A DNA stretch of 5,326 nucleotides from Candidatus Sumerlaeota bacterium (GTDB lineage Bacteria > CG03 > SLGR01): positions 1 through 5,326 of the forward strand of contig SLGR01000069.1 of assembly GCA_007136585.1 (NCBI GenBank), given 5' to 3'. The notes beneath the pieces were generated by a model. It saw only the letters and a program-made list of their open reading frames with translations, searched no databases and had not been told where the DNA came from. Made by a program: the position numbers and the translations under genes. Below are positions 1 to 5,250 of the stretch, in pieces (position 1 is the first letter of the stretch; each line of letters opens with the position of its first letter).

Positions 1-1948
1 GGCCAGCCCCAGAGATAAAGACTTAAATTGTGAACACCCAGCATATCGGATCCCATATAGTACCCGCCTCCCACAAAACCTATATCGGTTGAATAAAGAA
101 AGGAGGGAAGAAAAAAATCAGTAGAGAAAGGGGACCTTGCCTCGTAAACCCTGTACTCCTCTTCAGAGAGCTCGTATGCATAATCCCTTGAGCCGTTATC
201 CGGGTCCGCGACCTCAGGTTCAGTTTCGGCGGAGCCGGCCGCCTTTCCCGAGGCAGCCGCCTCAAGGGTAAAACTTACAATCCTGTAACTCCCGTCGTAG
301 TAGCAGGAGGCTATAACCCCGTCTCTGTAAGAGGAAACCCCGAAAGCTCCCCCTTTCAGATTGGTAACCCTTACAGGGGTCTCTCCGCCGCCGGAAGATA
401 ACCTGTATATATTAAAAACCCCGTCCGGATCGGATATAAAGTACACCTCCCCTTCCGGAGAGATATGGGGATGGATCTCAAGGCTGGGAGTATCGGTAAG
501 CCATTCGGCAGTTCCTTCATCTGTCCGGATCACCCTAAGATCCGTCGAGAGGTTACGCTCGGTTGCGGCCAGTATACGGCCGGAGTCAAGGAAAACCGGT
601 CCGTAATCAACCAGACGGTCAGAAGTAACCTGTCTGAGAGACCCCGAACCGGTCTCATAAACAAAAATATTTCTCATCGCATCTTTCAGCGCCGTAAAGA
701 TAACCTTTTTTCCGCAGGGAGAAAGGGCGGGGGAGCGGGGCTCGTGAAGATCTTCCAGGTGGACCATTACGGTATCATTACTCACGGTATCGTGAAGGCA
801 AAGATAATTTCGGTGATTCCGTCCGGCAATGAAAGCCAGAAGCCCGGAACCGGGGCTGTAATCTATTATCCTGTCATAACGGTGCCCGGAAACGAGCGTA
901 TCGACCTTAGAGCCGAAAAACCCTTTAAGAACTTTCTTCTCCCCGTCCGGGGTATGGCGGTATATCTCATTCCGGAGCCACCTGTCTGAAACATAATAAA
1001 AACCGCCCTCTCCGTCGGGGACCGGAGTCCGGCAGTGATAATCCCCTCCTATTATCTCGGTTCCGGAATCGGAGGCGGAGTCCCTCCCCTGTGTGAAATC
1101 GCGGGTTTCTTCCTTTATCCGGTTCCGCATTTTCCTGTCAAAATCGTGGAGACCCGCAAATTCCGTAGAGGCTACCTCAAAAGCCTTAATGGGATCAAGG
1201 TTGTTCCTAAGAGACCTGAGAAGACGGAAGTTTACCCTCTCGCCCTCGACTTCTGTCAGATAATCAATCGCGTAATGACTTATCTTATACCCCAGGTACA
1301 CGTGCCTATATAGGGGGCTGAAATTCTGAAGCTCTCTCAGGGTGTAAAGATAATCATAGAGGGCCGCATCTCTTAGTATCATCCTGTCATATGAAGACCA
1401 CTCTCTTTCCAGAACGGCGTGGGCCACGTGTTCGGCCTGACCCTCCATTACCCAGAGCGGGACCACCCCTCCCATAGCCTTGAGGAGCCTGGGTGAGCGC
1501 CAGAATCCCCCGTAGAGTATCTCAAACTGGGATATGTGGGCAAGCTCATGCGCCATCAGGTGCAGGTCATCGTATTCGGACATACTGAGGGGAAGAACGG
1601 CCCTGTTCTTAAAGGGTTCAGCGAACCCCTCCACCCCCTCCCCCACGGGGGATATGGTATTCTGCATAAAGTGGCTTCGTGTATAGTAAATGAAAACAGG
1701 CATGCGGTCGCCGGATTCGGCGTTAAGGTATCCCTGAACTTCCCTGTGTATACCTTCAAGGTTCTCCAGAAGCCCTTTAAGGTAAAAACCCTCTTCAGGG
1801 GTTATGTAGTGGTATATTTTAAGACTGGGAGTTTCTGCAGTCCGCCAGTCAAAACTTTCTAGGCGGACCTGAAACGCATGCAGATTTAAAGTCGGTAAGA
1901 CCGCAAAAAAAAAAGAAAGAATAAGAGTCTTTTAATTTTCAGACTCAT
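1..1948 (-). CDS. Putative secreted zinc protease (peptidase MA-like) with TolB-like propeller and outer-membrane barrel start; partial, frameshifted in the signal peptide
   Basis: A long frame open from 1904 to the left edge with no stop; I know no gene symbol. Numbering starts at the ATG at 1946-1948 and assumes one extra T in the homopolymer at 1905-1914. Residues 1-25 then form a signal peptide: KIKR, a Leu/Phe-rich core, and likely cleavage after LHA. Residues about 28-300 form a gluzincin-like protease domain with HELAH at 134-138 and a likely third zinc ligand, Glu169, in WVMEGQAEH, as in peptidase MA-like proteins. Residues about 308-562 hold six PD40/TolB-like blades, most about 45 residues apart (near Pro312, Pro366, Pro411, Asp455, Pro498 and Asp543). 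An acidic linker follows (564-610). From about 612, aromatic- and glycine-rich segments (DIGFVGGGYYMGSDMLGVHNLSLYLWGW split over 622-649) resemble the first strands of a BamA-like surface-antigen barrel. The expected location is the outer membrane or periplasm; the substrate is unknown. The ATG overlaps the rpsA stop as ATGA. As written, that ATG runs into a TAA at 1886-1888 after 20 codons, and the first in-frame ATG downstream is at 1701-1703. Confidence 0.85.
1536..1550 (-). other. HELAH zinc-binding motif of the putative protease
   Basis: Codons for His-Glu-Leu-Ala-His, preceded by Leu-Met-Ala and followed by Ile-Ser-Gln-Phe-Glu. The HExxH motif, with a Glu 31 residues after the second His (WVMEG), fits the gluzincin layout of peptidase MA-like domains. 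All putative catalytic and metal-binding residues are intact. Confidence 0.85.
1905..1914 (-). other. Ten-base homopolymer (T run on the coding strand) that breaks the frame of the protease gene
   Basis: Ten consecutive A on the plus strand, read as T10 on the coding strand, inside the hydrophobic core of the predicted signal peptide. From the ATG at 1946-1948 the run shifts the frame and leads to TAA at 1886-1888. With 11 T or 8 T, the start, the signal peptide and the 630-codon downstream frame join perfectly. The tract is either a length error in the assembly or a slippage site. Confidence 0.85.
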
Positions 1949-3216
1949 TTTTTCTTATCGTCCTTATCCTTATCCTGGGTAAGCCCGTCCAGCTTATCGC
2001 CTATCAGGTCGTATAAAGTGGAACCTGACCCGGAAGAATCCATATACTTTTTCATCTCCTGTTTTTCTTCCTCAGCCTGAAGATCTTTTATGCTAACCTC
2101 TATGTATTTTTTATCCGGGTTATTCTTTATTACCCGGCACTCGACCTTATCCCCCTGGTCAAGCTGGTCACGCAGATCCTCTGTGCGGTCCCGCGAGTAA
2201 TTGGATACGTGAAGGTAGGCCTCAAGACCGTTCGGAAGCTCAAGGTATGCACCGGAACGGCTCACTTTACCGGCCTCCGCCTCTACAGTGGCGCCCACAG
2301 GGTACTCCTGGTAGGGGTTTTCTTCCATCTGCTTAAGTCCCAGGGATATTTTCTGTTTGTCGGAGTCTATTCCGAGAACTTTCACTTTCAGGGTATCCCC
2401 CACATTCAATGCATCCGAGGGATGCGATATATCCCTGTTCCAGGATATATCGGATATATGAACCAGACCTTCCACACCTTCAGGGAGCATTACAAAAGCC
2501 CCGAAATCCGTCAGGTGAGTGACCTCACCCTCTAAAACATTCCCTTCCTGGTAATTTTTTTCCACTTCTTTCCAGGGGTTGGGCTGGGTCTGCCTGACAC
2601 TTAAGGCTATACGCTGCGCCTCCGGGTCCACCTCAAGTATACGAACCTTAAGCTTCTCATCCGTCTTTACCGCGTCAGCCGCATTCTTTATATCATCCAC
2701 CCATGAGAGCTCCTCGGTTCTGACAAGCCCTTCCACTCCGGGCTCAAGCTCTACAAAACACCCGTAGTTAGTGACCCCGGTCACCCGCCCTTCCAGTTCA
2801 TCACCGGGCTTGTATTTCTCATCAATATCTTCCCAGGGGTGGGGCTGGTTATCCTTGAGGCTCAGGGCTATCCTGTTGGAGTTGGGATTAAAGCTTTTTA
2901 TGCTGACCTCCACCTCCTGGCCGGGTTCAAGAACATCCTCAACTTTATTTACGTGACCCCAGGAAAGTTCGCTTATATGGAGAAGCCCGTCCACTCCTCC
3001 AAGATCCACGAAAGCTCCGAAACTTTTTATCCCGGAGACCTCGCCTTTTACAACCTTTCCGGGATAGAGCTGTTCAAAAAGCTCCTCTCTTTTCTGTCTT
3101 ACATCTTCTTCAATGGCTTTACGCCAGGAGACCACTATGTTTCTTTTATCGCGGTCAAACTCGATTATCTTGCAGGGGACGCTTTTATCTATAACGCTGT
3201 CAAGGTTCTTTACCAT
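1945..3216 (-). CDS. rpsA: 30S ribosomal protein S1, C-terminal part (rest of R2 plus R3-R6)
   Basis: Same frame as the upstream part, two codons after its TAA. The 423 codons hold the second half of R2 (VKNLDSVIDKSVPCKIIEF, residues 2-20), then four full S1 domains: R3 about 53-121 (GEVSGIKSFGAFVDLGGVDGLLHISELSW), R4 about 138-207, R5 about 225-294 and R6 about 308-377. Linkers carry the recurrent QPHPWED and QPNPWKE motifs typical of S1. In E. coli these later domains provide most of the mRNA binding. The tail (378-423) ends in a highly charged Lys/Asp stretch. The ATG at 3214-3216 may be only an internal methionine of full-length S1. It could also serve for reinitiation, since GTAGGG precedes it by six bases. 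By itself this ORF would start mid-fold in R2, so it is best read as part of one rpsA. The TGA stop overlaps the next gene's ATG. Confidence 0.92.
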   Translation of the reverse strand: MVKNLDSVIDKSVPCKIIEFDRDKRNIVVSWRKAIEEDVRQKREELFEQLYPGKVVKGEVSGIKSFGAFVDLGGVDGLLHISELSWGHVNKVEDVLEPGQEVEVSIKSFNPNSNRIALSLKDNQPHPWEDIDEKYKPGDELEGRVTGVTNYGCFVELEPGVEGLVRTEELSWVDDIKNAADAVKTDEKLKVRILEVDPEAQRIALSVRQTQPNPWKEVEKNYQEGNVLEGEVTHLTDFGAFVMLPEGVEGLVHISDISWNRDISHPSDALNVGDTLKVKVLGIDSDKQKISLGLKQMEENPYQEYPVGATVEAEAGKVSRSGAYLELPNGLEAYLHVSNYSRDRTEDLRDQLDQGDKVECRVIKNNPDKKYIEVSIKDLQAEEEKQEMKKYMDSSGSGSTLYDLIGDKLDGLTQDKDKDDKKK

Positions 3217-3219
3217 AGG

Positions 3220-3222
3220 TTA
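3220..3222 (-). other. In-frame TAA interrupting rpsA
   Basis: On the minus strand the sequence reads CTC GTA GGG TAA CCT ATG GTA AAG AAC in one frame. Both sides are S1 protein and align to the family without a gap, so the lesion is a single codon, not a frameshift. It sits inside the second OB fold, between the ribosome-anchoring and RNA-binding halves of S1. Confidence 0.93.
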
Positions 3223-3639
3223 CCCTACGAGAGAAGCAGGCATCACACCCTTGCTCCCGGAAATATCAACTATAACCCCGCCCCTGACTCTCTTTTCTAT
3301 TATAGCGTCAATGACAAGTTCGTCCTCGTAGGCCTTGTAAAGCGTTTCCCAGCGGTGTTCCATTCTGGCCCGTTTGTGGGAGAGGACAGGAGGATGCTCG
3401 TAATTCCTGCTTTTCTTTACGATGAAGACTTCAACTTCGTCCCCAATTTTTATATCTTCACCCTCAAACTCATCCAGGGAGACTATACCCTCGGATTTAT
3501 ATCCGATATCAACGAGAGCAGTTCCTCCCCCGGTATCTATATCAATAACGGTTCCATTGACAACCCTGTTGCTCTGCTCCTGCTGGGCTTCTTCAACCTG
3601 CTTAACCACATCTTCCATACTGATCTTTTCTTCTGCCAT
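3220..3639 (-). CDS. rpsA: 30S ribosomal protein S1, N-terminal part (ends at a premature in-frame TAA)
   Basis: First 139 codons of the S1 gene. S1 binds the 30S subunit and mRNA leaders during initiation; in E. coli its first two S1 (OB-fold) domains anchor it to the ribosome. Domain R1 spans about residues 25-92 (NGTVIDIDTGGGTALVDIG). R2 begins near residue 106 (VIDAIIEKRVRGGVIVDISG) and stops abruptly at MPASLVG followed by TAA. In S1 homologs this strand continues as PASxVxxxPVxNLD. The reading frame here continues unchanged after the TAA with Pro-Met-Val-Lys-Asn-Leu-Asp, which aligns without gaps. The piece therefore looks like half of one interrupted gene of about 564 codons, the normal six-domain length (E. 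coli S1 has 557 residues). The start ATG (MAEEK) is three bases after ispH. The stop may be a base error, a true nonsense mutation, or a site of reinitiation or readthrough. Confidence 0.9.
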   Translation of the reverse strand: MAEEKISMEDVVKQVEEAQQEQSNRVVNGTVIDIDTGGGTALVDIGYKSEGIVSLDEFEGEDIKIGDEVEVFIVKKSRNYEHPPVLSHKRARMEHRWETLYKAYEDELVIDAIIEKRVRGGVIVDISGSKGVMPASLVG

Positions 3640-4572: not shown

Positions 4573-5250
4573 TCAGGGTTTATCCCGGTATGCAAGCGAG
4601 ACTATCTGCTGAACCACATCTTCAATCGAAAGGTTCGTAGAATCAATTATCACAGCATTTTTGGGCACCCGGAGCGGGGCGAGACCCCTGGACTCGTCAA
4701 GCATATCGCGTCTTTTTATCTTTTCCTCCAGGGAACCGAAATCAACATCTATACCCTTATCCTTAAGTTCCTGCCACCTCCTGCGCGCCCTCTCGGATAT
4801 ACCGGCATCAAGGTAAACCTTGAGATCCGCCCCGGGAAAGACTATGCTCCCCATATCCCTTCCTTCAAAGACCGTTCTTCCCAACTTCCCGGCCGAACTT
4901 CTCTGCAGCCTGGCCAGCTTATACCTTACCCCCGGGATAGCCGCAACAAGAGAGGTGTTCTCAGTAACCTGCGAACCGCGGATATCATCGGAAACTTCAC
5001 GCCCGTTAAGAAATATAAGCATCTTTCCGTCTTCAAAATCAATCCTGATATCCATCTTCCCGGCAAGCTCCTCTATCTCCGGGACACTGTCAAACTCCAC
5101 CGATGCTTCTATGACCCCCAGTGTTACGGCCCGGTACATAGCCCCTGTATCTACATACTTAAAACCCAGGCGCCGTGCAACGGTCCTGGCTATGGTGGTC
5201 TTACCGGCCCCGGCAGGGCCGTCAATAGTTATTATGTATTTATCTTTCAA
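4573..5250 (-). CDS. cmk: Cytidylate kinase (CMP/dCMP kinase)
   Basis: Cytoplasmic nucleoside monophosphate kinase that phosphorylates CMP and dCMP with ATP, in pyrimidine salvage and recycling. The 225-residue length is normal for bacterial Cmk. Visible motifs are the P-loop GPAGAGKT at residues 11-18; the substrate-side DTGAMYR at 34-40; GRDMGS at 130-134, the family GRDxG(T/S) motif that contacts CMP; and the lid segment RDMLDESRGLAPL at 181-193, carrying the conserved Arg181, Asp185 and Arg188. Start choice: the first codon is TTG at 5248-5250, preceded by GGAGGG with six bases of spacing. No ATG precedes the P-loop in this frame, and the start puts the P-loop at its usual distance from the N-terminus. 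The gene overlaps the aroA stop by 11 bases. It ends with TGA and is followed by a 69-base gap before ispH. No disruption was seen. Confidence 0.97.
   Translation of the reverse strand: MKDKYIITIDGPAGAGKTTIARTVARRLGFKYVDTGAMYRAVTLGVIEASVEFDSVPEIEELAGKMDIRIDFEDGKMLIFLNGREVSDDIRGSQVTENTSLVAAIPGVRYKLARLQRSSAGKLGRTVFEGRDMGSIVFPGADLKVYLDAGISERARRRWQELKDKGIDVDFGSLEEKIKRRDMLDESRGLAPLRVPKNAVIIDSTNLSIEDVVQQIVSLAYRDKP

Follow-up and report, generated by a model that had tools for sequence, protein, structure and literature searches.

The window analysed here, a stretch of 5,326 nucleotides, is contig C221 of G000, the draft genome of an uncultured bacterium resembling Elusimicrobia, which totals 1.88 Mb across 257 contigs at 88% completeness and 1.6% contamination. 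It carries the gene order cmk-ispH-rpsA, followed by one further gene that runs to the contig end. The cmk frame, whose start codon is the TTG at 5250, overlaps the tail of a frame upstream that resembles the C terminus of aroA and lies at the other contig end (5250-5326).

The rpsA frame lies on the minus strand, extending from an ATG at 3639 to a TGA at 1947-1945, and would comprise 564 codons if read through. It holds a single interruption, an in-frame TAA at 3222-3220, such that an uninterrupted rpsA frame is not found in this contig. The stop is codon 140 of the gene and falls within the second S1 domain, where positions 3228-3214 read GTA GGG TAA CCT ATG. The 5′ part (3223-3639, 139 codons) encodes S1 domain 1 together with the N-terminal half of domain 2, while the 3′ part (1945-3219) encodes what is left of domain 2, the four domains 3-6, and the conserved C-terminal tail. 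The corresponding ORFs, 3639-3220 (139 aa) and 3216-1945 (423 aa), share one reading frame, the latter opening as listed with the ATG at 3216-3214, a conceivable restart codon.

In a profile search, the two parts matched adjoining, non-overlapping stretches of NF004952 (positions 28-163, then 168-577), and their matches to TIGR00717 covered positions 7-132 and then 137-516. A whole-genome profile search placed six S1 (PF00575) domains on the contig, all in one frame when the stop is read through, with one TAA inside the second domain (3315-3124). The gene therefore shares with the bacterial six-domain S1 family (rpsA; TIGR00717, NF004952) its six S1 domains and conserved C-terminal tail, and differs from it by a stop at one codon of domain 2, in this contig only. 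The first-pass annotation had described a TAA in the middle of the second S1 domain with no change of frame, and sequence, ORFs, and profile matches agree with that description; its further claim that the stop fills exactly one residue position is borne out by the alignment with genomes of the same order, in which the TAA occupies a single column without any indel. An in-frame TAA occupying one column amid S1 matches on both sides is far beyond chance.

No second rpsA was found by searching the whole G000 draft, which is 88% complete. The sole other S1-domain match lies within a 706-codon frame on contig C202, which, judged from its length, is probably PNPase. The nearest named record shows 74% identity over the 3′ part of rpsA and is labelled ‘Elusimicrobia bacterium’.

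The order-level relatives compared for rpsA represent other genera, not strains. All six order genomes with a full-length rpsA carry Tyr in the stop column, encoded by TAT or TAC within the motif GYPMVK, and members of the phylum further off have Tyr or Phe there; a stop in this column was seen in none of the six or of the more distant phylum members. The flanking residues, MPASLVG-PMVKNLDS, are unaltered in most of the order genomes. Apparent stops inside the rpsA of L009, L010, L013, and L016 proved to be terminal stops taken into the alignment, and the in-frame TAA of L014 is at a different site, near the C terminus. The comparison with relatives that the first-pass annotation had called for thus returns a sense codon in every order-level relative and supports the reading it preferred, a sequence error, without separating an error from a very recent mutation.

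The surroundings of the stop speak to its age. Identity between the S1 of G000 and that of its relatives, whether before, after, or around the stop, is about the level found among the relatives themselves. In relative-rate counts, the part before the stop holds 3 changes unique to G000 and 12 unique to G002, and at no more than 15 residues from the stop the corresponding counts are 1 and 4. These counts reveal no relaxation of the residues beside the stop, and neither half is eroded, whereas a split of long standing within an S1 fold should have left a relaxed joint. A real nonsense mutation would therefore have to be very recent.

S1 is normally indispensable, as established in E. coli. For this reason we infer a defect of the sequence record rather than of the cell itself. 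The TAA, private to this contig, is likely to be a single wrong consensus base, or a base of a minor strain taken up by the assembly. The cell would then make an ordinary full-length six-domain S1, with the TAA a fault of a fragmented draft consensus, and the stop most likely does not represent a new way of making S1. In its features the case resembles the isolated premature stops of draft metagenome assemblies, sharing with this class a single stop, a kept frame, sense codons in all relatives, and conserved flanks, and no difference from it was seen. The literature on premature stops in metagenome assemblies yielded no paper with the search terms used.

How often such faults occur was assessed in G000 and in related drafts. 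The stop scan and the count of terminators covered about 400 kb of G000 contigs, sampled in stretches, and the scan used non-overlapping matches, an earlier version having been swamped by antisense frames. The rpoB, uvrA, and dnaE genes of G000 are uninterrupted. G000 is low in noise, with one such stop per about 19,500 aligned residues, and for a random consensus error to hit this very gene would be somewhat unlucky. The G005 draft, for its part, contains three in-frame TAA codons in an alignment of just 4,506 residues. The first interrupts rpsA close to its C terminus, ahead of the conserved tail, the second stands in aroA where the alignment has a Tyr column, and the third is five codons away from the end of a contig. 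These three are probably errors or decay, and they demonstrate that lone premature stops do arise in drafts of this group. The G005 sites were recorded at L182 (G005:C191:14000-21367) and L199. Separately, an rpoB match in G004 (G004:C108:18307-21963) has one TAA inside, which could be a terminal stop.

It is less probable, though an account of some weight, that the sampled strain really acquired a nonsense mutation very recently, so that its S1 is damaged or the cell survives by residual readthrough or restart. In favour of this, the base belongs to the consensus of an assembly that otherwise shows few faults of this kind, and the sequence contains nothing incompatible with a real mutation. 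On the other side, the unrelaxed flanks compress the event into a very short time, and the genome, at its 88% completeness, offers no other rpsA copy to stand in for a protein that is generally essential. It is this usual indispensability of S1, a matter of general knowledge, that leads us to prefer an error over a recent mutation.

Far less credit can be given to termination at the TAA followed by restart at the ATG, whereby two S1 chains would be made on purpose. The two codons do share a frame and are separated by three bases, but the stop is present in none of the relatives, the ATG encodes the Met that the order conserves within GYPMVK, and the cut lies within an S1 fold. Shine-Dalgarno pairing at this ATG is also at background level: its −4.0 kcal/mol with the standard anti-Shine-Dalgarno is equalled or bettered at 55% of rpsA codon positions, whereas the starts of rpsA, ispH, and cmk pair at −9.0 to −10.5 kcal/mol. 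Two relatives without the stop share the GGG ahead of it, a normal Gly codon. Programmed readthrough or restart would be marked by a stop kept in relatives and by an initiation signal at the restart codon, and neither was found. The readthrough and reinitiation that the first-pass annotation had also offered gained nothing in their favour. More generally, it is very improbable that the stop is real and the gene truly split in domain 2, with S1 made as two chains or by way of readthrough; a literature search on split S1 gave nothing relevant.

The weakest account supposes that a changed genetic code or a suppressor tRNA lets UAA be decoded as an amino acid, if not everywhere then at some sites. 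It can appeal to the in-frame TAA codons of G005, which likewise fall in rpsA, at the aroA Tyr column, and at a contig end, but is scarcely credible, since TAA is a common terminator in both genomes, ending 75 of 188 ORFs of at least 200 aa in the roughly 400 kb sampled from G000 and 37 of 50 ORFs in G005. The 19,489 aligned G000 residues, which include 400 conserved Tyr, hold no further believable internal stop, nor does a second TAA stand at a Tyr column in a real gene; the few other stops listed in the scan look like antisense frames or sequence 5′ of a start. A reassigned stop codon is rare as a terminator and frequent inside genes, which is not the pattern of G000, and a tRNA with a UUA anticodon was not seen among the six tRNA genes in the sampled stretches of this genome. 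Together, the use of TAA to end these G000 ORFs and the lack of another believable in-frame TAA in the aligned residues exclude general recoding.

The gene 3′ of rpsA begins with an ATG at 1948-1946 that overlaps the rpsA stop. Its product would comprise a signal peptide, a metallopeptidase-like part with an HExxH motif, and a TolB-like propeller, although the family matches are weak. Within the region encoding the signal peptide lies a run of ten T on the minus strand (1914-1905), past which the mature protein continues in a different frame that lacks a nearby start of its own (ATG, GTG, or TTG). The same arrangement, a run of 8 to 10 T with the mature protein out of frame, occurs in seven of eight order genomes, spanning three families: six of them need one additional T, and G007, with a run of eight, needs a change of −1 or +2. 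G003 has no T run, and its gene is in frame. Once frame-corrected, each of the genes with a T run yields a plausible signal peptide. The chance of all seven being out of frame is about 0.06 if the genomes are treated as independent, which they are not fully, and runs of at least 9 are rare in G000; the conservation of the T run is hence a stronger point than the shared out-of-frame state. Published work describes homopolymers of at least 8 as a signature of transcriptional slippage and links poly-A/T runs to phase variation as well (PMC3711429). From its sequence, this gene is perhaps a phase-variable locus or one expressed by transcriptional slippage.

The case is chiefly a warning: when a core gene in a draft assembly shows a single premature stop, relatives should be consulted before any mechanism is put forward. 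Were the rpsA stop real, it would part the ribosome-binding S1 domains from the mRNA-binding ones and provide a natural test of S1 function. Of the two features, the gene with the T run merits more attention than the stop in rpsA.
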